Shown: piece after piece, positions 39,001 to 53,015 of the stretch | Layout: the number at the start of each line of letters is the position of its first letter | Numbering within the stretch: position 1 is the stretch's first letter | Assembly: GCA_017534815.1 (NCBI GenBank) | Contig: JAFXVS010000037.1 | Coordinates: 32,704-96,703 of the forward strand | Length of the DNA: 64,000 bases | Reading direction: 5' to 3' | Source: Bacteroidaceae bacterium | GTDB lineage: Bacteria; Bacteroidota; Bacteroidia; Bacteroidales; Bacteroidaceae | Translations under genes and position numbers: made by a program | The notes under the pieces: model-generated | What the model saw: the letters and a program-made list of their open reading frames with translations, nothing else | What the model was told of the DNA's origin: nothing | Databases searched by the model: none

Positions 39001-40347
39001 GCAGAACTCCGCTTCCTCGACATCAATACAGGCATCATTCTCTCTTCTGTCCCACTGCCATACGGCGCCAACCTCTACGCCAAGCCAGGCGACACCGTTG
39101 AGGCTGGTCAGATCATTGCAGACTGGGATCCATTCAACTCCGTCATCGTCACCGAGTTCGATGGTGTGGCAGAGTTCGAAGGCGTGAAGGAAGGTCTTAC
39201 CTACCGTGTGGATGTCGATGAGACCACAGGTCTGCGCGACCTCATCGTGACGGAAGCAAAAGACCGTGCTGCAGTGCCATACTGCCACATCCTCAACAAG
39301 AAGGGTGGGGAACTGCTCCGTACCTATTCATTCCCCATCAACGGTCACATCGTTGTGGAAGATGGACAGAAGCTCAAGGCAGGTGACATCCTCGTCAAGA
39401 TACCACGTTCAGTGGCCAAGGCCGGCGATATCACGGGTGGTCTTCCACGTGTGACAGAGCTCTTCGAGGCACGTAACCCATCCAACCCAGCCATCGTTGC
39501 TGAAATCGATGGTGAGGTGACGATGGGCAAGGTGAAGCGCGGCAACCGCGAGATTATCCTGACCTCCAAGGTGGGAGACGTCCGCAAGTACCTCGTGCCA
39601 CTGTCCAAGCAGATTCTGGTGCAGGAGAACGACTACGTGCGTGCAGGTACACCACTCTCCGACGGTGCCATCACGCCAGCCGACATCCTTGCCATCAAGG
39701 GTCCGACCGCTGTGCAGGAATACATCGTCAACCAGGTACAGGACGTTTACCGTATGCAGGGTGTGTCCATCAACGACAAGCACTTCGAAATCATTGTGCG
39801 TCAGATGATGCGCAAGGTGAAGATTGAAGATGCAGGCGACACCCGCTTCCTCGAAGAGGGTATCGTGGACAAACTCGACTTCCTTGAGGAGAACGACCGC
39901 ATCTGGGGCAAGAAGTTCGTCACCGACGCTGGCGACTCAGAGACCCTCGAACCAGGTATGATCATCACAGCGCGCAAGCTGCGCGACGAGAACTCCATGC
40001 TCAAGCGTCGTGACCTCAAGCTGGTGCAGACACGTGATGCCATCCCAGCCACCTCTACGCAGATTCTGCAGGGTATCACCCGTGCAGGTCTCGGCAGCAA
40101 GTCCTTCATGTCTTCTGCATCATTCCAGGAGACCACGAAGGTGCTCAACGAGGCAGCCATCTGCGGCAAGAGCGACTCCCTCGAGGGCATGAAGGAGAAC
40201 GTGATCTCAGGTCACCTCATCCCAGCTGGTACCGGTATGCGCGACTTCGAGAAGATCATCGTTGGAGCCAAGGAAGACTTCCAGACTATCGAGCGCCGTC
40301 CGTTCGATGCCGACTCCGTCTTCTCCTCCTTCGACAGCGACTTTTAA
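36043..40347 (+). CDS. rpoC: DNA-directed RNA polymerase subunit beta'
   Basis: A 1434-residue subunit carrying the catalytic magnesium site [12 protein letters not shown] (three Asp). The N-terminal zinc finger is present ([20 protein letters not shown]), as is the second one near 880-900 ([17 protein letters not shown]). The trigger loop region ([16 protein letters not shown]) is conserved. It closes the core block; a strong terminator follows at once. Confidence 0.99.
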
Positions 40348-40459: not shown

Positions 40460-40747
40460 TTAAGATATCTTGAAACCGAGTTTCATGATGAGTTTTAAAG
40501 TCCCGATAGAAGTGTTACGGTCATACTCTTTCTCCTCCTCCGGCAAATCCTCGTATGGGATAAGGCAAGGATGTTTCTTAAGTTCATCGTTGCGCTGTTC
40601 ACCATACGTCCAACCTTGCTTGATGCGAGTCTCAGCCCATACTTCATGTACGTTCTTTGACATTTGCTCTACCAACTGTTCCAATTCTTTTGGCAACTTG
40701 ACATCTGTAGTGTCAATAGGCTGCGGCATGTACGTTTCTGTTTTCAT
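40460..40747 (-). CDS. Stand-alone RyR-domain protein
   Basis: A 95-residue cytoplasmic protein that is little more than one RyR domain (the repeat first seen in ryanodine receptors). The pattern is clear: PQPIDTTDVKLPKELEQLVE, NVHEVWAETRIKQGWTYGEQ, then HPCLIPYEDLPEEEKEYDR. Comparative genomics has proposed that bacterial RyR domains bind nucleotide-derived ligands; that has not been shown for this protein. It overlaps the TIR gene upstream by 4 bp, so the two are translationally coupled, and is the last gene of the island operon. It could buffer, sense or remove a messenger made by the TIR proteins. Confidence 0.85.
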   Translation of the reverse strand: MKTETYMPQPIDTTDVKLPKELEQLVEQMSKNVHEVWAETRIKQGWTYGEQRNDELKKHPCLIPYEDLPEEEKEYDRNTSIGTLKLIMKLGFKIS

Positions 40748-41988
40748 AATTTTTCAGCCTTTTTCTCCAAATCATTCATTTGTTCTTCCATTTGATCAAG
40801 ACGTTGCTCCTCATAGTTGACGGCTTTTTCAAATCTTCTCATCTCTTCATCGCAGATGGCAAATTCCTGCATCTGGAACTGTTCATACTCCTCTTGTGTA
40901 AGGTCTAAGGGTGTGCCATTGGGAAAGATTTTCCATTTCTTGGCTGCATCGAAATGTGCTTTCCTTGCAGATTGAGGTAATAGTGACAATGAACCAAGAT
41001 ACCCATAATACAAAGCGTTTAATGTGTGCGCCATATAACTGAGTTTTACCGAAAGTAAATCTCTTTCCAAATGTGAATATTGGTGTACGTTGACCATATC
41101 TTTGATGCTTTCATTGATGTCTTTCATGTCATCCAACAGGCTGTTGTACAACCCAGGGAATGCATCTAATTCTTCCTTCTTGATATCGCGATAGGACAAG
41201 ATATAGTTTTCCAAATCATTATACTCAAAGCTAGGAGCAGGGTAGTTCCGCTGATAAGTGGCGAGTTGCTTTTCATTGTTCGCAACAAATTGTAGCAAAC
41301 AATTCTCGATGTCAGCCTTCTCCTCATTGTCTCGGGCTTTGTCATAAGATTTGTAGAAATCAGCCAGTTCTTCCTGCATGCTCTTTCCGTCTTCGCCCAG
41401 TAATTCCATCACATTCATCGAGGAAGTGAGTTTCGCCCCGATTTCGCCACAGGTGACTTCGGCAATGTGATGCATGATGCCATAACTTATCCCTAACAAT
41501 ATAACTACTATGCCCAATACTATTCCTGCTGTTCTCATCCACTTACCTATAGGTTTGGTGGGTTTGCTCTTCAGAAAGGTTTGTAATCGTTCCACAGCCA
41601 TGTCGAAAAACTCATGACCCACCGCAGTGACGGCCTGATAATTCGGCAAATCATCCATCCCTTTAGGCATCTCTTTCGGCCATACGAACCTATCCAACAT
41701 CACTGGCACAATGTTTTTGTGATTCTCCAAAGCACATATTACCTCCCTTCTTATCCAATCATTTGTATCGTGGCATCTGTCCAATGCATTTTCTGGTAAT
41801 ACCAAAACGAAGTCCTTGCAGTTAGCGATGACACCCAATAATTGTTCATTGAATTTGCCACCCGTCAGCGTGTCCACATCAAAAAACACCTTATATCCAG
41901 CGTGTCTTAACTTCACCGCAATCAAGTTCGCCGTATCATATGATGTACGTCGATAGCTGATAAAGACATCATATTTCTTTTTCTCCAT
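40744..41988 (-). CDS. Membrane-bound TIR-domain protein with C-terminal coiled coil
   Basis: A 414-residue protein. An N-terminal TIR domain (about 5-140) begins YDVFISYRRTSYDTANLIA and has YKVFFDVDTLTGGKF; the candidate catalytic Glu is residue 82 in DWIRREV, so NAD-cleaving activity is plausible. A membrane segment spans about 153-173 (TAGIVLGIVVILLGISYGIM). The rest (174-414) is helical, ends in a coiled coil (about 370-414), and would be periplasmic if the TIR is inside the cell. The start is 1 bp after a 43-codon small frame, and the RyR gene overlaps its end, so all are read as one unit. Confidence 0.88.
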   Translation of the reverse strand: MEKKKYDVFISYRRTSYDTANLIAVKLRHAGYKVFFDVDTLTGGKFNEQLLGVIANCKDFVLVLPENALDRCHDTNDWIRREVICALENHKNIVPVMLDRFVWPKEMPKGMDDLPNYQAVTAVGHEFFDMAVERLQTFLKSKPTKPIGKWMRTAGIVLGIVVILLGISYGIMHHIAEVTCGEIGAKLTSSMNVMELLGEDGKSMQEELADFYKSYDKARDNEEKADIENCLLQFVANNEKQLATYQRNYPAPSFEYNDLENYILSYRDIKKEELDAFPGLYNSLLDDMKDINESIKDMVNVHQYSHLERDLLSVKLSYMAHTLNALYYGYLGSLSLLPQSARKAHFDAAKKWKIFPNGTPLDLTQEEYEQFQMQEFAICDEEMRRFEKAVNYEEQRLDQMEEQMNDLEKKAEKL

Positions 41989-41989
41989 A

Positions 41990-42121
41990 CTATTTCTTCC
42001 CTATTTCAAATCTTAATTTCTTTACTAATAAAATCATATCCAATGCCATGAAACAATCATGCTCTTTCTCGCTATCTGACAAGCGGGATAGGGGATAACT
42101 CCTCCGTAACCCGATTGTCAT
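41990..42121 (-). CDS. Possible 43-residue small protein between channel and TIR genes
   Basis: A frame starting ATG at 42121 and ending 1 bp before the TIR start codon. The product begins MTIGLRRSYPLSRLSDSEKE and ends KKLRFEIGKK; it is basic and helical at the C-terminus. The tight spacing to the next gene supports translation, but I know no family for it and it could be the tail of a broken gene. Confidence 0.35.
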   Translation of the reverse strand: MTIGLRRSYPLSRLSDSEKEHDCFMALDMILLVKKLRFEIGKK

Positions 42122-42158
42122 GCGCAATCAATCCTTGTATGATTTCCTGATTAGTCAT
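42072..42158 (-). pseudogene. Fragment resembling the N-terminus of a small sigma factor
   Basis: A 28-codon frame whose ATG overlaps the channel gene's stop (ATGACTAA). Its first 18 residues (MTNQEIIQGLIAHDNRVT) resemble the N-terminus of a Bacteroidales sigma-70-like family ('EIIQGLI..DNRVT'), then the frame stops. It overlaps the 43-codon frame above in another phase, as if a small gene had suffered a deletion and frameshift. It may still serve translational coupling. Confidence 0.4.
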
Positions 42159-44502
42159 ATATATTTACTGTATTCTCATAAATCTTTGGTAGGATTCTAG
42201 TGAGATCTTCATCATATTTAATAGCCTCCTTGTCAATCTTCTCTAAAACTTCATAAGAGCAAATGTCAATATGACTCATATTGGCTTTCAAAATTTCTCG
42301 TTCTTCATCAAACTCCTTCCATGCGTCGAGCCACTTGCTTAATTGGGGGAATTGTTCAGGATCCAGATTTTCTTCCTTTGATCCCGACAGTTGCATCAAT
42401 TCATTATCTGGTGTTTCAATTCCATCAGTCAATTTTAGTTTGTTTTTAATTGATTTTTGTTCTTCTGGACGTAACGGAGCATATCCGAGTAGCAACTGTT
42501 CAGTGTTCCATCGGACATGTTCTAACTGTGCTAAGATGGTCAAATTCTCTTTGTCGATTTTACTATGACCATCCCATCCGATGCTCCGAAGTTTAGTCCA
42601 CAAATGCGCTGCGGCATAGTTGTTTGACCAGAGACTTGCTGCTAATGATTTCCCAGCTTTTATGGTTACATCTTTACCAAGTTTTTTTCTGTATTCATTT
42701 CTTCCTCCAATGCGACCTTTATATGTCGAACTATATTGTTCCCATAGTTGATTGGCAGCAGCTTCCATGTTTTCTATATTCTTGATATTGTAGCAACTGC
42801 TCATCATTCCAAATGCTTTTAGCTTAGCAAATTGATTGAAGTTATTACGATGACTAACAGATGAGTTTCCTGTCATCTCAATTTTATTTTTGAAGCATTG
42901 GCACATTGCATCACCATATGGTTGGTATGCAAGAACTTGAACTACATTGTTATTTTCGTCATACACCTCATCTGGTAAATATAAAGATGCCGCAAATGAA
43001 GCATTGTCTTTGGAAAAACAGATAGCAATGGTCAACTTTACATTCTTTTGTGCTGTGGCTTCTCGGATATAGCATTGTACTGTTGGCATTTCAAGATTTC
43101 CTTGGATAAATTCCCAATCAACATCAACTATTTTCCCTCCTAAAGTATAATCCTCTCTGTTTCGATATGGAGAGTGGCTATTGCTGTCCGTTAATGGATC
43201 ATTCCATGATTCATCATTGGCAGCATAAGGAATGTGCGTGCCTTTATTATAATAGATGTCATCATCCTCCGCTTTTATGTATCTCCATCGTGACAATGCA
43301 AATAATTCCTTATAGTGTCCTTGGATGTATTGCATTTCATTTTTAGCAACAGCATCAATGAAAGTTATTCGGGTTCTTAAATTGTTACTCTGATTCTTTA
43401 TGAAATTCGGATAATGGGCTATGTGTGCTGCTTCGATACCCATGGCCACCCCCATTCTACTCATACCAACGACAATAAGGTGAACCGTTTCGTTGCTGTC
43501 AGGTGTTATTGGCTTATCACCCTCCAACGGTAGATACTTGCTGTTTTGTGCATCTATGCTCAGAGATGGATAAACTAAAACTTTTTGAGCCCATGTCTCA
43601 TAGTAGTTAAATGGCCTAAATTTTAAGACGGAAGATATGTCACTATTTACATCTGTGAATTGAAAAACGGAGAATGAACTTTGGTATTCAAACATGACAC
43701 GGCACATTTTCTTAGAAAAGGGAATCACGGTATCCTGCTTAATTCTTCTTAATAATTGCGCCAGCAATTTAACACATTCCATGTTTTTAACATCGTGATG
43801 GCTGCCGTTTTGTTCAATGTCAAGTTGCTCTCCAATGACATGAATACAGTTTGCTCGTTCGATTTGCAAGTGGCTCAAGTCCTCTTCAAGGGTGCGTTCT
43901 CCATGATATATCACAACCCTTTCTTCATCTTTCCCTATGACAGAAACGATCTTCTTCCGAAGAACAGATACGTCACGATTTGTCATGACTAAAACATGCA
44001 AAGAATCCCTCCCTAATAGTATTTGTCCTATTAAATTAGGAACCATTTCATTTCCACCGATTATTACATCATAATTATTTAATGCATATGATCTTTGAAA
44101 CCACCTTTTCTTGTCATAACGCAATTCTCCTGATTTCCATCTTTCACTCCTTTTTTCCACCCATGAAACTATTGCAGAAACTAAAATGCCATTCAATAGA
44201 AAGACTCCGAAAACACCTGCAATTAGTAGATAAAGCCTGCGTGAGAAACTCATCTCTTGGTGCGCTCCTGGATTGATATAGTTTTCATAAGTGTCCCAAA
44301 ATAGGCCGTCTTTGATAAATGATAACGGCTCTGATGCCCCAAATATATGAACAAGGGCAAATTGGGCAATGACTCCAATGAACCATATTCCCACTGGTAG
44401 CAACATAATGATGCATAGGAATTGCTTAAGACTGCCCTTAGCAACCATCCTGTCAAAATATATTGGATTCAATAGATTTTTTATATTCTGGATCATTCTC
44501 AT
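42151..44502 (-). CDS. Two-TM RCK/CASTOR-like channel with C-terminal RyR domain
   Basis: A 783-residue protein. Two membrane segments (about 27-52 and 88-114) flank a loop that could line a pore, as in CASTOR/POLLUX and related two-TM channels. Then comes a TrkA-N/RCK-type nucleotide-binding fold (NNYDVIIGGNEMVPNLIGQI at 142-161) and a second one (VHLIVVGMSRMGVAMGIEA at 340-358). The C-terminus (about 650-783) carries a RyR domain: LAQLEHVRWNTEQLLLGY at 657-674, then SHIDICSYEVLEKIDKEA. The pore assignment is by topology only. It lies 56 bp after the STAND gene in the same operon. My reading is a ligand-gated ion channel whose RyR tail senses a messenger; a non-channel membrane sensor is the alternative. 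Confidence 0.75.
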   Translation of the reverse strand: MRMIQNIKNLLNPIYFDRMVAKGSLKQFLCIIMLLPVGIWFIGVIAQFALVHIFGASEPLSFIKDGLFWDTYENYINPGAHQEMSFSRRLYLLIAGVFGVFLLNGILVSAIVSWVEKRSERWKSGELRYDKKRWFQRSYALNNYDVIIGGNEMVPNLIGQILLGRDSLHVLVMTNRDVSVLRKKIVSVIGKDEERVVIYHGERTLEEDLSHLQIERANCIHVIGEQLDIEQNGSHHDVKNMECVKLLAQLLRRIKQDTVIPFSKKMCRVMFEYQSSFSVFQFTDVNSDISSVLKFRPFNYYETWAQKVLVYPSLSIDAQNSKYLPLEGDKPITPDSNETVHLIVVGMSRMGVAMGIEAAHIAHYPNFIKNQSNNLRTRITFIDAVAKNEMQYIQGHYKELFALSRWRYIKAEDDDIYYNKGTHIPYAANDESWNDPLTDSNSHSPYRNREDYTLGGKIVDVDWEFIQGNLEMPTVQCYIREATAQKNVKLTIAICFSKDNASFAASLYLPDEVYDENNNVVQVLAYQPYGDAMCQCFKNKIEMTGNSSVSHRNNFNQFAKLKAFGMMSSCYNIKNIENMEAAANQLWEQYSSTYKGRIGGRNEYRKKLGKDVTIKAGKSLAASLWSNNYAAAHLWTKLRSIGWDGHSKIDKENLTILAQLEHVRWNTEQLLLGYAPLRPEEQKSIKNKLKLTDGIETPDNELMQLSGSKEENLDPEQFPQLSKWLDAWKEFDEEREILKANMSHIDICSYEVLEKIDKEAIKYDEDLTRILPKIYENTVNIYD

Positions 44503-44558
44503 TTTTGATTATATTTAGGTAATAATTCATTGTTTGGCGGCAAATGTACAAAAAGAAT

Positions 44559-47120
44559 CTAATATTCAATTTCTACCACCTCACCTCCATTTCCTGCTCT
44601 TGGATTTTTCATGATGAATGAATGTTCCTCCGTATGGAAATCGTTCTTGAACGATGTGATATAAATTCGCCAATACTCTGCGTTCTTTTCCTGCTTTTTC
44701 CATTCATTTAGGCGAACCATCGTCCCATAGAAATATGAATTAACTAATTTCTTATTTATTCTTTTTACATACCATCCATAAACAGGTCTCACATCGTTTT
44801 GGATGCCGTTTTCACGACTCAAGAAATACACCTCAGAAAACAATCCCACGGTAGAAGAAGAAAAATGTTTACGCAAATTACTTTTCACAGTGTCAAGTAC
44901 AGCAACTTCACACATCCATCGCCTCTCATCATCAGTGGTTTCTGTATTTCTATTATCTTCCTTCGCAGATACTTTAAACAGACGATCTATGGCTTCTCCT
45001 TTTCTCGCGAAAAGAGTCTCTAACGGTACGTCCTCACACAATGGCAGATTTACTTCTACCGGCTGAATTTGGTTCGCTAATTCATACTGCATAGGTTTGA
45101 AATCACGCTTGGACACAGTCAGAAGGCCCTTTTTCGTCTTTAATGGATCTTCGAATGAGAATAGAAAGTAGCCCGCTGAGTCCGTTCGCACCATTTCACC
45201 ATTCAGCGACACATATGCCTGATTAACAGGAATGGTCTTTTCCTTCTTAGGATTAGGATTGTAGACCACACGCCCCTTCAACGTATATCTTGTGTTACGA
45301 TTATATAGAATATGAACAATCTTTGGTTCAATCGAATCTGAAGGGTGAAGAATAGATGTCGTATTAACACACATCTTTAGAGTATCTGTCGGCACAACAC
45401 AAATCTGTATGCTATCATGCTGATAAATGCTGTCATGCAATTGGAATGATATTTTTACCGTACTGGAATCCACCGGGAACGTCCCCAGCAAGCTGTCATT
45501 CATTTTTTTGATAAGCACGTTTGCTCCCCATCTTGGTTTGTCAGCAAAGGCAGAATCTACATCAATATCGAGGGTGACTGTACGATATAATTCGGAATCC
45601 AGCATTTGCGGCTTCTCGTCCTTCAATTGCCATACCAACCATCCTCCGCCAACCATCAAGATGAGAATGAATCCTATTAGGATGCTTTGCCCAATCCTCA
45701 TTCGCTTGTTTTTTTTCTCCATCTCTGCAAGAAGCTTTTCCTGTCTGATTCTTTCCTCTTCCTGCTGTTTCTGCAAAACGCGTTCTTCTTTGTGGGCTTG
45801 CACGATGGGGCAAAGAATGTCATGAACAAACTCGATGCGGAGGTCTCCTGCATAGTTAAATTGTCGTAATATCTTCTTTTGGGAACAAAGGAAGTCCAGT
45901 TCTTCTTTTGGTACCCCATCACCTCTGACGGCATCAGAGAGTGACTTTATGTCACGTCGCCCCTGCTTCGTGAGGAGATTTTCTTCCAAATACTTAACCG
46001 TTTTCTCTGATATATTGGATATGGCGTCGGCATATAACTCGGAAATGATTACATTTGCCTTCTTCTCGACGAGTTCGCCTGTTATCGTGTCTTCGGTGTG
46101 TGCATCATACAAACGATTCAGATATAGCGACAACATAGCCGCACTCACTTCAATCTCAGGAACTCCGTCAAGTTTGAAATCGGTTTTGCCAGTCACCTTC
46201 TCAATAATCAGTTTTGCCACCTGCTCGCTGATGAGTCCTGGCACAGGACGCATAATGATCTGCGCGGCCTGTTCCTCGCTGATTGGACGAAGCCCATATC
46301 TGTTTTGTTTCAACGAAGGAATAGATGCGGAATAGTATTCAAACTCGGAAAGGAAATCCTCCCTGATGGTGAAAACTAAATGCACTTCATTGTCTGTAAC
46401 ATAGTCAGGGGCATTGTCCTTGGCCTTGAGATTGATGTCATTAAACAAGTCCGCGATGCTCTCGTCATTCAATACAGTAATTTCCTTTTGTGTGTCGGAT
46501 GAGACAATATATCCCTGCTGCAATTCGCTGGGCATGATGTCATTGAGAAAATCTGCCAGTTCTGCAAAAAAACTTCTTTTTCTCGCTTCGACACCCTGCA
46601 ATGTGAAAATTTCCTCAAACTGGTCGAAGAAGATTAACAACTTGATGCGAGTTCCGTCCGAAGCATGAAATGTGTGGCGATGGAAGAATTCATACAGACT
46701 TTCCTCTTTAGGATTTCCACATGCCACCACTTGTTTTATCCGATTTGCCAGATTTGCCTCTCTGTTTCGTTTTTCATCATCAGACAACGTTCTCTGATTG
46801 CCTTGCTCATCGAGTGGAATTGGAATCATCGCATCCTCAATAGCCTTCTTTATCTGACTAAGATAAGAATCCTCCTTCGAATCCCCATCCTTATGAGAGA
46901 GACGAACCATGATGGGTAGGAATCCGTTTCGCCGAGCGGCAGGTATGATGCCTGCATTCAAAATGGAAGACTTGCCGATTCCACTTTTACCATAAAACAA
47001 TGTGCCTTGATCATTTAACACACATTGGGTCAAGTCACGAATGTCTTCATCGCGACCATATAAGATATCACCTTCTCTGTATGATTCAAGCCCCAACCAT
47101 GGGTTTCCCTTTTTTTCCAT
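44559..47120 (-). CDS. Membrane-anchored STAND (nSTAND1-like) NTPase with periplasmic C-terminal region
   Basis: An 853-residue protein. The N-terminal NTPase has the nSTAND1 pattern: NPWLGLESYREGDILYGRDE, Walker A YGKSGIGKSS (43-52), Walker B LLIFFDQFEEIF (161-172), sensor-like TIREDFLSEF (251-260) and RPISEEQAAQII (279-289). A winged-helix-like part follows, then a Glu/Lys-rich coil (445-473) and one membrane segment (about 479-499). Residues 500-853 would be periplasmic and contain a carboxypeptidase-regulatory-like beta domain (INQAYVSLNGE-like, with TDSAGYFLFSF). STAND proteins are switch ATPases that oligomerise when a threat is sensed. Most have their sensor inside the cell; here it may be outside the inner membrane. 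It is 6 bp after the SIR2-like/TIR gene. Confidence 0.85.
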   Translation of the reverse strand: MEKKGNPWLGLESYREGDILYGRDEDIRDLTQCVLNDQGTLFYGKSGIGKSSILNAGIIPAARRNGFLPIMVRLSHKDGDSKEDSYLSQIKKAIEDAMIPIPLDEQGNQRTLSDDEKRNREANLANRIKQVVACGNPKEESLYEFFHRHTFHASDGTRIKLLIFFDQFEEIFTLQGVEARKRSFFAELADFLNDIMPSELQQGYIVSSDTQKEITVLNDESIADLFNDINLKAKDNAPDYVTDNEVHLVFTIREDFLSEFEYYSASIPSLKQNRYGLRPISEEQAAQIIMRPVPGLISEQVAKLIIEKVTGKTDFKLDGVPEIEVSAAMLSLYLNRLYDAHTEDTITGELVEKKANVIISELYADAISNISEKTVKYLEENLLTKQGRRDIKSLSDAVRGDGVPKEELDFLCSQKKILRQFNYAGDLRIEFVHDILCPIVQAHKEERVLQKQQEEERIRQEKLLAEMEKKNKRMRIGQSILIGFILILMVGGGWLVWQLKDEKPQMLDSELYRTVTLDIDVDSAFADKPRWGANVLIKKMNDSLLGTFPVDSSTVKISFQLHDSIYQHDSIQICVVPTDTLKMCVNTTSILHPSDSIEPKIVHILYNRNTRYTLKGRVVYNPNPKKEKTIPVNQAYVSLNGEMVRTDSAGYFLFSFEDPLKTKKGLLTVSKRDFKPMQYELANQIQPVEVNLPLCEDVPLETLFARKGEAIDRLFKVSAKEDNRNTETTDDERRWMCEVAVLDTVKSNLRKHFSSSTVGLFSEVYFLSRENGIQNDVRPVYGWYVKRINKKLVNSYFYGTMVRLNEWKKQEKNAEYWRIYITSFKNDFHTEEHSFIMKNPRAGNGGEVVEIEY

Positions 47121-47126
47121 CTTGCT

Positions 47127-48524
47127 CTAATCTTGATTCATTATGCGACTTATATTTTCTGCCACCTGCTCAATATCTTCACTCCCAGCAAAGTGAATGG
47201 CGTTATACTGTCTCAGCTTTTCAGGAATAGCAGCCTTGTAGAAATCAAAATCTTTGACTGCAATTGGGATGATAAATGTGCGTCCCATGCTGATTGCGAC
47301 CTCAATGGCCGTATCCCATTCATTCCTATATACATGCGATTCCTTTTTCTCTTTTGTGATGTTGCCGGAGAAAATTGGAATGAAATATTGAGCCGTACGG
47401 ATTGCCTTATATATCTCCTCCATGAAATTTCCACCTTCAGTCACGTTATTGCGGTCATACCACACTCGTTTGCCTAACTTTGTAAGGGCTTCATATAGTT
47501 TGTCTGCAATTTCGCTATCCGATCGTGAATAGGAGATGAAAACATCCATTCTCTCTTTGGGCTGGTTAAACTTTTCCGTCTCTTTTTCCTCTGCCAATTT
47601 CTTATTCAGACGTGTTATAATTTGCTCCATCACTTCCGATGTGTTTTGTCTTGTAAAGGTCTGAACACGAGCAAGAAAATTAATCAGTTGCTCATCAGGC
47701 AAGTCGTAGGCCAGCATGCCATGACCAAGATTCGACTTACGCACGGAATACCAGATGAATCTGAAAAGCCAATTATCATGGCTATTGCCAAGCATCAACA
47801 GATATTTATCTCTCAGTGCATTGCACAAGTTCTTTGGACGGACCTTGTTATCATTAGAAAGCCACGATGACACATAATCCAGCATATCCGTGTCTGTCAG
47901 CGCATATTTCTTCACCTCTTCGCAATACTTGCCAAACATGTAATAAACCGTTGGCTTGCGCAAATCTACTTCTGTCTTAATGTCATCGTTCTGGACAGGA
48001 TTGTTGCAAAAGCGCATCACGCGTAACTCGTCTTTCCATACATTTCGCATCGCTTGCTCCACGATGGGTGCGTAGCTGGTGGTGATGACAAAGGGAAACT
48101 GACGAATGGAGAGAAATTTTTCAAGTTGCTTGGTCGCAGGGAATCGGTTCTTGGCAAATATCTGATAAACGAGATCGTAAATCTTGTCACGGTCAACCTC
48201 TCGATCTCCAAAGTGATTTTTATATTTATCAGAATAAATCATCTCCGAAAAACTGTGAGGATGTTTTACACCAAGTTTTCCGGCTAAACCTTTTATGATG
48301 AACTCATTGATGTTCATACTGATGACCTCATCATTCTCATTCTTGCGCTCTACCGTCAACAATTCTGGACCAATTACAGGGATAACTTTCCCATCAATGA
48401 TATTCTGAATCAGTAAATCCCATGACTGTTGATCGGGGTCTTTTGACCCCGTAGTTGATATGGCATCACCAAAGATATCAACATCCTTACTGCTATCCTG
48501 TACTTCCTTCATTTTTTCTCTCAT
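47127..48524 (-). CDS. Degenerate SIR2-like domain fused to a TIR domain
   Basis: A 465-residue soluble protein. Residues about 35-290 match a SIR2-like fold: VIPVIGPELL (45-56) for the nucleotide loop, ITTSYAPIVEQA (147-158) where sirtuins have T-x-N-x-D, and YYMFGKY (194-200) where they have the catalytic His-Gly. Both catalytic residues are therefore replaced (Asn by Ser, His by Phe), so the domain may bind NAD or a derivative without cleaving it. The C-terminal TIR (326-465) starts MDVFISYSRSDSEIADKLYE and keeps a candidate catalytic Glu at 402 (VYRNEWDTA). It is the first gene of the second transcription unit of the island, with its own upstream element. Confidence 0.85.
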   Translation of the reverse strand: MREKMKEVQDSSKDVDIFGDAISTTGSKDPDQQSWDLLIQNIIDGKVIPVIGPELLTVERKNENDEVISMNINEFIIKGLAGKLGVKHPHSFSEMIYSDKYKNHFGDREVDRDKIYDLVYQIFAKNRFPATKQLEKFLSIRQFPFVITTSYAPIVEQAMRNVWKDELRVMRFCNNPVQNDDIKTEVDLRKPTVYYMFGKYCEEVKKYALTDTDMLDYVSSWLSNDNKVRPKNLCNALRDKYLLMLGNSHDNWLFRFIWYSVRKSNLGHGMLAYDLPDEQLINFLARVQTFTRQNTSEVMEQIITRLNKKLAEEKETEKFNQPKERMDVFISYSRSDSEIADKLYEALTKLGKRVWYDRNNVTEGGNFMEEIYKAIRTAQYFIPIFSGNITKEKKESHVYRNEWDTAIEVAISMGRTFIIPIAVKDFDFYKAAIPEKLRQYNAIHFAGSEDIEQVAENISRIMNQD

Positions 48525-48561
48525 ACAAATAGGTTTTGGTATCAGTTCTTATGAAACATAG

Positions 48562-48573
48562 TTGCAAATTAAG
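48562..48573 (-). promoter_or_regulatory. Promoter-like box upstream of the SIR2-like/TIR gene
   Basis: On the minus strand CTTAATTTGCAA, 38 bp before the start codon. The same 12 bases occur upstream of the TPR gene at 52010-52021. It is near, but not identical to, the TAnnTTTG -7 consensus. Confidence 0.5.
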
Positions 48574-48625
48574 CACTTTTTTCTTATTTCTCCTAATCTT
48601 TTCTTACTTTTTTTGTATTCTTGAG

Positions 48626-48643
48626 TTCTGTGGGCGCACACAA
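48626..48643. promoter_or_regulatory. Palindromic operator-like element, copy 1
   Basis: TTCTGTGGGCGCACACAA, one base different from the copy at 52094-52111. It lies 53 bp upstream of the promoter-like box, in the 163-bp gap that splits the island into two transcription units. Confidence 0.6.
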
Positions 48644-48687
48644 CAACAGTTTTTTTACATGAAAAGACATTGCGATTTTTTTTTTTA

Positions 48688-49836
48688 TTACTTTCTGAGC
48701 ATCACTTGCCAATTTCGACCCACACCTTGTTTGGTGTACTCTTCTGTTTGATAACCAGCCTTATTAATACGAACATGAGGATGAGGCTTCTGCTTTTCAA
48801 TAGGAATATTGAGTTCGAAAGTTCCATCTGCTTGTGAGGTTGTAGTGATGCCCTCTGCTTCAATGGTGGCTCCATTGAGCGGTTCCCCATTTTCATCAAT
48901 TATGGTTCCTGCCAACATTCCATAGGTGTTGGAACGATGGATATTAAGCGTCACCTCCCCCCCCCTTTGCAACATCACCATAGTGTCCACATCCTCATAA
49001 CCATCTGCAATGAAAGTCAGTCGAACCTCTTGGTTAGCAAAACGTCCTGGAAGGTTCTTATAGAGACCTATTTCATCTGTCTTGGTCAGCACTAAAGGTC
49101 TTTTCTCATTGTTAAGAGTCAGCATCACCTTTAAAGAATCGGGGGTGGGTAAGTTTTTATTCTGTGGGGTCGTATCATTCAATCGTATAGCAGTATCAAA
49201 CTCTGTGTTATAATGCCAAGTCCATAACAGTAGCGACAACACTACAATAGCCCCAATAGTTTTTAATGTCACGCCTTCCCAGAAGCGTATACGGTAGCGA
49301 TTCCATAAATAGCTGTAGGCATCTGGCACTTCTATTAGGATGGACACAGTACGCACCAAGGCTTTCCGCTTACGATAGATACGTGGATCATCTCCGTAGT
49401 CATCAATGTTCACGCCCAAGATGTCGCCATCTGGGAAGGCTGCCTTTAACACTGGATTCAGACATTCGTGTTCATCGTTTGAATAAGATGTCCCATCTAC
49501 AATATAGGGAAGGATATGGTCACGTCGCCCTGTGTCAAGGAAATGTTGAATCTCCTTGCCCACCCATGTTGATTTGGCAGAATTAGGCGAACATATGACG
49601 ATCAGCCATCGTGCATCATCCAATTCCTTGGCCAGTCCCTCGTTCAGCGAAATCGTATTTAAATCAGTCCTGTAACGGAACACCTTCAACTTCCTCGGCT
49701 TCTCTCCTTTTTTTACAACTTCATCCTTTTCATTCTTGATGACCACAGGCATGCTGTATGCCTCCAACTTCCGTTGCAGCCATTTCGCCCATTTGTCATC
49801 CTTTGAGTTATAACTTATAAATGCCGTGTACTTCAT
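48688..49836 (-). CDS. Membrane TIR protein with carboxypeptidase-regulatory-like C-terminal domain
   Basis: A 382-residue protein. The TIR domain (about 1-170) begins YTAFISYNSKDDKWAKWLQR; the candidate catalytic Glu is residue 95 in STWVGKEIQ. A membrane segment follows at about 190-208 (TLKTIGAIVVLSLLLWTW). The C-terminal part contains beta-rich sequence and a carboxypeptidase-regulatory-like domain near 305-382 (GTIIDENGEPLNGATIEAEG, then ADGTFELNI). If the TIR is cytoplasmic the C-terminus is periplasmic, so the protein has the makings of a receptor with TIR output. It follows the secreted TPR gene by 12 bp, which suggests the two work together. Confidence 0.88.
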   Translation of the reverse strand: MKYTAFISYNSKDDKWAKWLQRKLEAYSMPVVIKNEKDEVVKKGEKPRKLKVFRYRTDLNTISLNEGLAKELDDARWLIVICSPNSAKSTWVGKEIQHFLDTGRRDHILPYIVDGTSYSNDEHECLNPVLKAAFPDGDILGVNIDDYGDDPRIYRKRKALVRTVSILIEVPDAYSYLWNRYRIRFWEGVTLKTIGAIVVLSLLLWTWHYNTEFDTAIRLNDTTPQNKNLPTPDSLKVMLTLNNEKRPLVLTKTDEIGLYKNLPGRFANQEVRLTFIADGYEDVDTMVMLQRGGEVTLNIHRSNTYGMLAGTIIDENGEPLNGATIEAEGITTTSQADGTFELNIPIEKQKPHPHVRINKAGYQTEEYTKQGVGRNWQVMLRK

Positions 49837-49848
49837 ATTTGTTAACTC

Positions 49849-51939
49849 CTATTCGTTCAATACCTTCTTTATTCTCTCCACATCTTCTTCTCGTTCTTGG
49901 GGAATCACACCTGCTGCTTTGAATCGATAAAAATCTTCGAGGAATAAATCTTTTAGGAGTTCTTTATTTTGGCGGTAGATGGATTCCGCTTCTGAAAATT
50001 TTCCTTGGAAAAGTATGGCAGCAGCGAGGCTTAGGGTATTAATGGCTGTACAGTGGAGAGAAGCATCCATTACCATGCCGGCGCGTGCTAATTGTTCTGC
50101 TTGAGAGTATTTCTCCTTAAAGATATAGCAGAATGCTAGTTTTCCTGAAATTGCAGAAACACATGGCTTATATTCCTTTGGATTATCATCTGCTAGATTT
50201 AGATAAGATGCCAAAGCCAATTCATACATGGATTCTGCCAACGAAAACGATTGAAGGTCTGAATACAAGTCTGCTAAATTATTTAGGGTTCTGGCTATTT
50301 CTATCTCATAGACAATCGGATTGTTCTCTGTCAACCGGATAAGAATTTCCATTGCCTGCTTAAATATTTCTTCTGCTTCAGAGAATCTCCCTATTTCGTG
50401 ATAAAACGCGCCCATATTATTGAGTGTCTGGATTATGCCAGGTTCATAAGCTTTTGGATTATTATGTATTAATATTTCGTGAATCTTTAGTGCTTTTTGG
50501 AATAAATCCTCAGCTTCGGTATATTGTTCAGTATTTGTATACACAATTGCCAAATTCGTCATTATCAATGCTAAATTAGGATAGTACTCCTTAAGTTCAT
50601 CATCCGTCATACATGAGAAAATAGTTAGTGCTTGTCTAAATAAATCTTCAGCTTCAGCTAATCGTCCTTTTTTATGGAATATAGCAGCTATATTGCTTAA
50701 AGTAAGTGCCATGTGAGTACCATACTCCATCGAATTGATTTCTTTAATTTGCATGGCAATTTCTAGTGTTTGTTTACACATATTCTCTGCTTCTGTTAGC
50801 CGCCCCGTTTCGGAGTATAAAATTGCCAGATTAGTCAGCACTTTCGGCACAAAGAGAGAATATGCATTAGGATTCTTTGCCACCAATTTCTGATAGTTTT
50901 CTAATGCTTGTTTATATAGTTTTTCTGCCTCACTAAACCTTAATTCTTTAAAATACAACCATGCCAAATCATTCTGCAAAGAAGGCAGCCATAGTTCCTC
51001 GTCCCCCTGTAACGCCCCTTTATGCTCTACCATATTAAGTGCTTTGTTAAAATATCGCTCAGCTTCTTGGAAGTTGTTTTGATTAGAGCAGAATTGAGTG
51101 TATATTATGACATCATAAAATGTGTTCAGATTATCAGCAAGCAATTTTAAAGATTCTGCCGCCCGGTCCCAATTGCCACTATTCATATACATCTTGACAG
51201 AAGTACGCAGTTTATTAAGAGTCAGCATGCTGTCTTCTGTCGCCTCTGTGACGATTTTTTCTCCTATGTGCCTTTTAGTGAGTGTTTGTATAAACTTCTC
51301 TTCCAAATTCAAATTCTCCAGTATTTCCAATGCCTCATCAACATCTCCTCGTTCGTATAAATTAAGCACTTCTTGCATAGAGGAATCGAGTTCGCTTTGA
51401 TCAATGCGAGCCATGGCTTCAGAAGTTTCGCTGAGCGATTCCATCACTTTTTGCAGATGTTCTTCCGCTTCTTGCAATTGCTGATTCTTCTCAGCTTCTT
51501 TCAGCTCCTGATCTGCTTTAATCTTGGAAATTTCTTTCTCATATTTTTCAGTGGCCGCTTTCAACCCTTGTTGATAAAAATTGTTTTTTGCAAGTTCAAA
51601 CTCCTCGTAACGGCACATGATAAGACGCAGACGGTCTTTCACAATGAACCAATTGTCCACCTCCTTTTTATTGAACACCTTCATTCCTTGATAGTAGGGT
51701 TGCTTTTCAAAGCCAATTTTGTCCCCTAATCCATAATTGTCAAATACCAAGGCAAACGTACCATCCGCTTTGCTCACCGTTGGTTGTGCCCCTGCAACAG
51801 TAAGGCTCACATTAGCAATAGGCTTTTTCGTCTTGGTCTTATAATCATACAGATACGCTATACCCTGCTGAGTGTAGGATTTAGCTGACATCAGTGTTGT
51901 ACACATCAGGACAATTAGAAAAATAGAAAGTTTTCTCAT
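49849..51939 (-). CDS. Secreted TPR-repeat protein with N-terminal regulatory-like beta domain and coiled coil
   Basis: A 696-residue protein with a signal peptide (1-19). A short beta domain follows (about 22-90; IANVSLTVAGAQPTVSKADG resembles carboxypeptidase-regulatory domains), then a long charged coiled coil (about 120-185) and about ten TPR units from about 255 to 690 (repeated patterns such as GRLTEAENMCKQTLEIA and GRFSEAEEIFKQAMEIL with 42-residue spacing). It should be periplasmic and act as a scaffold or sensor. It heads the island and probably feeds the membrane TIR protein 12 bp downstream. The 42-residue TPR period is the one found in kinesin-light-chain-type TPRs, often seen in signalling and conflict systems. 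Confidence 0.88.
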   Translation of the reverse strand: MRKLSIFLIVLMCTTLMSAKSYTQQGIAYLYDYKTKTKKPIANVSLTVAGAQPTVSKADGTFALVFDNYGLGDKIGFEKQPYYQGMKVFNKKEVDNWFIVKDRLRLIMCRYEEFELAKNNFYQQGLKAATEKYEKEISKIKADQELKEAEKNQQLQEAEEHLQKVMESLSETSEAMARIDQSELDSSMQEVLNLYERGDVDEALEILENLNLEEKFIQTLTKRHIGEKIVTEATEDSMLTLNKLRTSVKMYMNSGNWDRAAESLKLLADNLNTFYDVIIYTQFCSNQNNFQEAERYFNKALNMVEHKGALQGDEELWLPSLQNDLAWLYFKELRFSEAEKLYKQALENYQKLVAKNPNAYSLFVPKVLTNLAILYSETGRLTEAENMCKQTLEIAMQIKEINSMEYGTHMALTLSNIAAIFHKKGRLAEAEDLFRQALTIFSCMTDDELKEYYPNLALIMTNLAIVYTNTEQYTEAEDLFQKALKIHEILIHNNPKAYEPGIIQTLNNMGAFYHEIGRFSEAEEIFKQAMEILIRLTENNPIVYEIEIARTLNNLADLYSDLQSFSLAESMYELALASYLNLADDNPKEYKPCVSAISGKLAFCYIFKEKYSQAEQLARAGMVMDASLHCTAINTLSLAAAILFQGKFSEAESIYRQNKELLKDLFLEDFYRFKAAGVIPQEREEDVERIKKVLNE

Positions 51940-52456: not shown

Positions 52457-52858
52457 ATGGCATTACAAGTAAAGGTGCAGAAACTGAAGAAGAAGGGGCA
52501 ACCTGACAAATGGTATGGGAAGACGGTCAAGCGTCAGGATGTGACATTGAAGCAATTGGCTCATATGATTAGCCAAAGCAATTCGGTTACGGAAAGTGAT
52601 GTGTATGGGGTTCTGACGGCTCTGGTTCATGAGATGAAGTTCTTCTTGCAGATGGGACACACCATCAAGTTGGATGGATTTGGCAATTTCCATCTGACGA
52701 TTGAGAGTGAGACGGTTGAGGATAAGAGTGACTATCGGTTGAAGGAGCACGTGAAACGGGTGAAATGCAAGTTTACCCCTGCTTCCCACCGTATCACTGG
52801 CCGCAAATTGAGCTATTATTTCTGCGAGGGTGTGGATTTAGAGCTGAAGAGGGAGTAG
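52457..52858 (+). CDS. HU-family DNA-binding protein (Bacteroidetes HU-like type)
   Basis: A 133-residue protein with the HU-like pattern of the Bacteroidetes family: ALQVKVQKLKKKGQPDKWY at the start, LKQLAHMISQSNSVTESDVY, then IKLDGFGNFHLTIESE. Such proteins bend DNA and are often present in many copies per genome. It is divergent from the island and followed by two hairpins and tRNA-Asn. A role in controlling the island is possible by position only. Confidence 0.88.
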   Translation: MALQVKVQKLKKKGQPDKWYGKTVKRQDVTLKQLAHMISQSNSVTESDVYGVLTALVHEMKFFLQMGHTIKLDGFGNFHLTIESETVEDKSDYRLKEHVKRVKCKFTPASHRITGRKLSYYFCEGVDLELKRE

Positions 52859-52937: not shown

Positions 52938-52941
52938 TTGG

Positions 52942-53015
52942 CGCTTCAGGATGGGCTTGAACCAACGACCCCATGATTAACAGTCATGTGCTCTAACCAA
53001 CTGAGCTACTGAAGC
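52942..53015 (-). tRNA. tRNA-Asn (anticodon GTT)
   Basis: 74 nt on the minus strand: acceptor GCTTCAG / CTGAAGC, D-stem GCTC / GAGC, anticodon arm CATGA-CTGTTAA-TCATG, T-arm GTTGG-TTCAAGC-CCATC. The second pair of the T-stem is T-T, a mismatch. No encoded CCA. Confidence 0.9.

Follow-up and report, generated by a model that had tools for sequence, protein, structure and literature searches.

A 64,000-nucleotide (nt) stretch of a Bacteroidaceae bacterium genome (GCA_017534815.1, contig JAFXVS010000037.1, positions 32,704 to 96,703 of the forward strand; hereafter, the window) carries seven genes in which three TIR proteins lie beside a two-transmembrane (TM) channel with a tandem RCK gating ring and a ryanodine receptor (RyR)-type tail, and beside a stand-alone RyR protein. 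The locus is best explained as a membrane-effector signalling module whose function is most likely anti-phage or anti-invader. Since the channel recurs in many gut bacteria, often accompanied by similar partners, it could represent a novel type of bacterial switch that couples an alarm signal to an ion channel. We favor, with about even confidence, a mechanism in which a TIR product is read by the RyR tail, the channel is the effector, and the separate RyR serves as a co-receptor or an off-switch. A first-pass annotation of the same DNA had listed seven minus-strand genes with the domains given below; all seven open reading frames (ORFs) are present, and Pfam matches and hydropathy agree with that description. 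In transcription order, the genes are as follows.

49849..51939, minus strand: TPR protein, 696 amino acids (aa); Pfam TPR_12, 160 bits
48688..49836, minus strand: ThsB-like TIR, TM segment, and CarboxypepD_reg domain (TIR1); TIR_2 54.0, ThsB_TIR 35, CarboxypepD_reg 38.1 bits
47127..48524, minus strand: fusion of a degenerate SIR2-like part with a TIR (SIR2-TIR); SIR2_2 32.6, TIR_2 78.0 bits
44559..47120, minus strand: nSTAND1 NTPase, TM segment, and C-terminal domain (STAND); nSTAND1 88.1 bits
42151..44502, minus strand: two-TM tandem-RCK channel, CASTOR/DMI1-like, with RyR-type C-terminal tail, 783 aa
40744..41988, minus strand: SARM1-like TIR, membrane segment, and coil (third TIR); TIR_2 51.7 bits
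40460..40747, minus strand: stand-alone RyR, 95 aa; Pfam RyR 127.5 bits

The Pfam cut-offs are 28 bits for TIR_2, 27.1 for nSTAND1, 24.5 for SIR2_2, 27.4 for RyR, and 32.3 for CarboxypepD_reg.

The stand-alone RyR passes the curated cut-off of PF02026 (127.5 versus 27.4 bits), and its matches in the PDB are the repeats of RyR1-3 and a "putative ryanodine receptor" (3nrt). Its predicted pocket is formed by H34, W37, H59, and D76, a His-Trp-His-Asp tetrad found in 34 of 35 short RyRs. The spacing of these residues equals that of H75, W78, H100, and D117 in the phage protein RyDEP, where this tetrad makes contact with the ligand, according to a 2026 preprint on phage RyR proteins (PMC13232231). 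The preprint also reports experimental binding of 2'/3' cyclic ADP-ribose (cADPR) by phage RyR domains and cleavage of 2'/3'cADPR by RyDEP.

The tail of the channel is divergent from Pfam RyR, and a fold comparison of the isolated tail placed an RyR2 fragment only at rank 13, with no standout match. Its predicted pocket consists of H662, W665, H744, and D764. Among 41 channel sequences collected without a motif filter, and with gapped positions omitted, these residues were kept in 38/39, 40/40, 39/39, and 39/39 cases, respectively, and they rank among the most conserved positions of the channel. The motif EHxRW is kept in 79/79 sequences of another alignment (A4), a partly circular count because one scan pattern contained EHxRW; the conservation claim therefore rests on the set found without that pattern. 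The first-pass annotation had staked its interpretation on a conserved RyR pocket, and an RyR-type pocket is kept in the stand-alone RyR as well as in the tail. One relative, L104:9656-12166, combines the retained tail with an N-terminally fused canonical RyR (residues 15-104, E 4e-41), giving a channel with two RyR-type domains.

Hydropathy placed the TM segments of the channel at residues 28-46 and 90-108. Pfam, PADLOC, and NCBIfam all returned nothing for the whole protein at E <= 0.1, and the best PDB fold matches of its gating ring were DMI1/CASTOR, in agreement with the RCK channel proposed at first pass. Its pore of two TM segments and its tandem RCK gating ring give it the fold of the CASTOR/POLLUX/DMI1 proteins, with which it also shares the lack of a TVGYG filter (PMC6697748). 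In contrast to those proteins, it is bacterial, has an RyR-type tail, and shows no Castor_Poll_mid match (PF06241, E <= 0.1); a relative of ~640 aa (L214) contains that domain (110 bits).

The candidate catalytic Glu residues named at first pass, E95 in TIR1, E402 in SIR2-TIR, and E82 in the third TIR, all fall in one alignment column, occupied by Glu in 60 of 63 TIR domains compared (window plus related loci). The third TIR matched the SARM1 TIR in a phmmer search of the PDB (E 7.2e-25), with E82 opposite the Glu of DWVHKE, and its relative in locus L132 gave the same result (4.8e-26). Weak PDB matches only, AbTIR and SARM1 included, were obtained for the TIR of SIR2-TIR; as the SARM1 Glu is not opposite E402 in the pairwise alignment, that assignment rests on the multiple alignment. 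A sequence search of the PDB with TIR1 matched no TIR structure. TIR1 has one TM segment by hydropathy, with CarboxypepD_reg downstream of it, and the third TIR also has a membrane segment by hydropathy; the C-terminal type of the latter was recognized in five loci including the window, in one of them without a TIR part. Five TIR proteins from other loci were scanned with Pfam: three end in repeats (WG; Sel1 plus WG; hexapeptide) and two in nothing clear. The sensor parts may be swapped. From NAD, the TIR enzymes of the window probably make a small molecule that serves as an alarm.

Active SIR2 NADases and deacylases carry a GAG motif and catalytic Asn and His residues. In SIR2-TIR these positions are replaced, as they are in all 6 relatives found (7/7 degenerate), so the SIR2 part lacks the signature of an active NADase or deacylase. 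In the same 7/7 cases a STAND gene comes next after SIR2-TIR. The window STAND protein belongs to nSTAND1 by its Pfam score and by its Walker A (GKSGIGKS) and Walker-B-like motifs, and has a TM segment at residues 479-497; its C-terminus had no Pfam match at E <= 1 and no similarity to the TIR1 C-terminus in a direct BLASTP comparison. STAND had been cast as the trigger of the system; the pairing with SIR2-TIR in 7/7 cases supports its link to the signalling.

In the mechanism we favor, SIR2-TIR would act with the STAND NTPase on the sensor side, with TIR1 and the SARM1-like TIR as further inputs. Upon a trigger, TIR assemblies would convert NAD into an ADP-ribose (ADPR)-type messenger, i.e., a cADPR isomer, which the RyR-type tail of the CASTOR-like channel would bind through its His-Trp-His-Asp pocket. 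Binding would shift the tandem-RCK gating ring and open a cation pore, and the ion flux would then stop the cell or the invader; a phage-stopping role is part of the proposal. The stand-alone RyR could be a second receptor subunit (it is fused to the channel in one relative) or a RyDEP-like hydrolase or sponge that ends the signal. That RyR domains read a TIR messenger, as the first-pass annotation supposed, agrees with the reported binding of 2'/3'cADPR by phage RyR domains (PMC13232231); we infer that the ligand comes from the TIR enzymes and that it opens the channel, and likewise the identity of the messenger, the direction of gating, the ion, the trigger, and the role against phages.

Association of the parts was assessed in 81 loci, comprising the best 80 of 237 channel relatives (276 pattern matches) and the window. 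Channel relatives occur in 17 of 120 relatives, and the channel in 47 of 301 family genomes, some of these being weak C-terminal matches. RyR above the Pfam cut-off is present in 36/47 channel genomes versus 5/254 channel-less genomes (Fisher p 2e-31), and in 29/39 versus 12/262 when strong channel matches alone are counted (Fisher p 2e-22), p values that are overstated because the genomes are related. At the locus level, 53/81 contain an additional RyR-domain protein, short in 34 and longer only in 19; it adjoins the channel in 31 (a short RyR in 23) and lies in the channel's gene run (same strand, gaps below 200 nt) in 51, one partial member counted (short in 30). A TIR is near the channel in 37/81 loci and in the same run in 28. 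RyR or TIR is found in 63 loci and both in 27; RyR, TIR, STAND, and NACHT are all absent from 17.

Of the 102 TIR_2 matches in 30 channel genomes, 28 are located no more than 10 kb from a channel, versus 1.06 expected, and 35 lie near an RyR, versus 1.53 expected; conversely, a TIR occurs within that distance of 15/35 channels and 25/41 RyRs. The expectation assumes uniform placement, a lenient null because defence genes cluster anyway. In the window genome, which is about 75% complete, all three TIR_2 matches sit in this locus. Gene order and content vary widely across related loci. A fixed seven-gene order was rejected because it appears in no related locus (0 of 80) within the DNA examined, and with TIRs near just 37 of the 81 channels a fixed seven-gene system is not supported as stated at first pass. 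As a whole, the earlier interpretation is partly supported.

These data also bear on whether the module senses energy or envelope stress, the RyR tails reading ATP, ADP, or ADPR of normal metabolism, with ion-channel gating or sigma-factor release as the output and the TIRs as incidental neighbors. A gene of ~190 aa resembling extracytoplasmic function (ECF) sigma factors (cluster c3; e.g., in L163:2590-4267), an identity read by eye for which Pfam gave no match, occurs in 16/81 loci, and 14 of the 16 copies precede a gene for a longer RyR-domain protein. One such RyR protein was scanned and has a C39-like part, below cut-off, and a zinc ribbon; the RyR domain may also control transcription. 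Two gene clusters whose scanned members are M48 and PrsW proteases are present in 11 and 10 loci, TIR was not seen in 44/81, and the R12 domain of RyR3 binds adenine ligands (PMC13232231). All of this fits stress sensing, but the excess of TIRs near channels, the patchy distribution (47/301 family genomes), and the location in a low-GC island do not, and we consider it doubtful.

It is also unlikely that the locus is defence-island cargo, in which TIR, SIR2-TIR/STAND, and channel-RyR are separate systems lying side by side with no common messenger. The widely differing order and content, the island-like composition, and an expectation for TIRs that ignores the general clustering of defence genes speak for such cargo; against it stand the RyR proteins (51/81, short in 30) and TIRs (28/81) within the channel's own gene run, the 4-nt TIR-RyR overlap in the window, the genome-level co-occurrence of RyR and channel, and the RyR-channel fusion. 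Least probable is a leading role for the stand-alone RyR, as signal-degrading immunity or an off-switch, with the tail a degenerate non-binding remnant: the full RyDEP tetrad in 34/35 short RyRs, the cleavage of 2'/3'cADPR by RyDEP (PMC13232231), and the divergence of the tail from Pfam RyR are compatible with this, but a remnant would not keep pocket residues that are among the most conserved of the channel.

Among known systems, Thoeris resembles the locus in its proposed working. As in Thoeris, TIRs with Glu at the catalytic position (three TIR_2 matches above cut-off, each in the Glu column) lie beside a candidate messenger-reading effector, with SIR2-like and membrane parts, and one window protein, TIR1, matches ThsB_TIR. 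In contrast, Pfam found no SLOG or Macro reader in the window proteins, ThcB4 scored 41.4 bits against a cut-off of 220, and the PADLOC matches to ThsB were weak or partial; the reader here would be an RyR domain and the effector an RCK channel. Because reader and effector differ, we do not class the locus as Thoeris. Other PADLOC hits were to a TPR model and, weakly or over part of the length, to TIR models, with PDC-S66 scoring best (1.4e-15, TIR part only). SARM1 has the architecture ARM-SAM-SAM-TIR; the third TIR protein resembles it in its TIR (E 7e-25, catalytic Glu aligned) and differs in that Pfam found no ARM or SAM, a membrane segment and coil being present instead. Animal ryanodine receptors likewise carry RyR repeats on a channel, but with another pore and gating architecture and a large cytosolic shell, whereas on the window channel the RyR-type part is a tail domain. 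RyDEP, a phage anti-Thoeris protein (PMC13232231), shares the pocket and its spacing with the stand-alone RyR; in the window, by contrast, the domain is a host gene, is present in related form as a channel tail, and stands alongside the putative signal makers instead of opposing them.

We found no paper on a host RyR-channel-TIR system, although a prior prediction in a 2015 nucleotide-signalling survey is possible. RyR is not mentioned in the available main text of three surveys (PMC8195603, PMC9503650, and PMC7159879), and the available part of the 2026 preprint, which describes phage RyR proteins able to degrade or sequester cADPR signals, names no host RyR system (PMC13232231). The window locus and its relatives provide an obvious host counterpart to such proteins, and the RyR domain would be the receptor. 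If so, a ligand-gated ion channel would join the effectors of TIR signalling, whether cADPR-type molecules act on RyR repeats would become testable in small bacterial proteins, and the pairing of immune NAD signalling with RyR-domain channels would seem to have arisen in bacteria as well. We advance only tentatively the fuller version, in which a cADPR isomer produced by a SARM1-like TIR acts through an RyR domain to open a CASTOR/POLLUX-type channel, the stand-alone RyR ends the signal as an enzyme, and phages answer with RyR decoys, so that the animal cADPR-RyR-calcium-type-channel axis would exist whole in bacteria.

RyR-like stretches were found in 259 phage records (E <= 1e-3). A single-sequence RyR scan of viral contigs gave no relative, and an alignment-based scan recovered close RyRs (at most 68% identical) on 12 IMG/VR contigs. 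The tetrad, read by eye, is kept in 11 of these 12; in the 6-20 kb examined of each, the channel was not seen, and one contig has a TIR. PHROG matches were obtained for 7 of 10 proteins from three of the contigs, e.g., helicases, a ligase, and transposases. Viral RyRs that keep the tetrad, with no channel seen in the DNA examined, are what one would predict were the messenger a target of phages. Two unverified fecal "Bacteriophage sp." records (L283, MT837259.1; L284, MT836850.1), with RyRs of 72% and 65%, were rejected as phage evidence because their ORFs read as bacterial contigs, L284 having an RyR and then the start of a channel.

The spacing of the seven genes gives three close-packed groups rather than the two transcription units first described. 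The gaps are 12 nt between TPR and TIR1, 163 nt between TIR1 and SIR2-TIR, 6 nt between SIR2-TIR and STAND, 56 nt between STAND and the channel, and 162 nt between the channel and the third TIR; the genes of the third TIR and the RyR overlap by 4 nt. The TPR protein begins with a signal-peptide-like stretch (by eye), followed by a stretch that weakly resembles the CarboxypepD_reg end of TIR1 (pairwise similarity to its C-terminus, E 0.002) and a TPR array; relatives of its N-terminal part occur in 5/81 channel loci, window counted, and we regard it as accessory. The cluster is flanked by rpoC (end at 40347) and an HU-like gene at 52457, both named by eye. Its GC content is ~38-43%, versus 48-55% in the flanks, and none of the seven genes was detected in the 2.7-10.5 kb downstream of rpoC in 17 same-genus relatives; for these two reasons the cluster looks like an acquired island. 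Those stretches did not contain the far flank either, except for two weak (28%) HU-like matches. Integration may have occurred at a tRNA-Asn gene (52939-53015) that lies where the low-GC island ends on its far side. The channel had no match among 72,556 plasmid records.

The closest channel relative (52% identity; G023:C84:47601-49807, L032) is interrupted by in-frame stops and is apparently decaying. A ~1000-aa protein lies upstream of the channel in L173:6877-9876, L150, and L161; of these three, one was scanned, and it contains a pyruvate phosphate dikinase nucleotide-binding domain. A second kind of protein, of ~720-790 aa, occurs in five loci as cluster c12 (e.g., L164:15387-17663 and L106:12126-14399) and also at L128:14804-16975. 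Its C-terminal RyR scored 27.9 bits in L164 and 26.9 in L128 (cut-off 27.4), with no match in L106, and the L128 protein reads as TM helices plus RCK-like stretches; these proteins are perhaps a second kind of RyR-tailed channel. In a sample of the phylum, 20 of 27 RyR-bearing genomes belong to a single genus (g133; e.g., G580:C35:148115-148597), which has many proteins of ~880-940 aa with two tandem RyR repeats, like animal R12.

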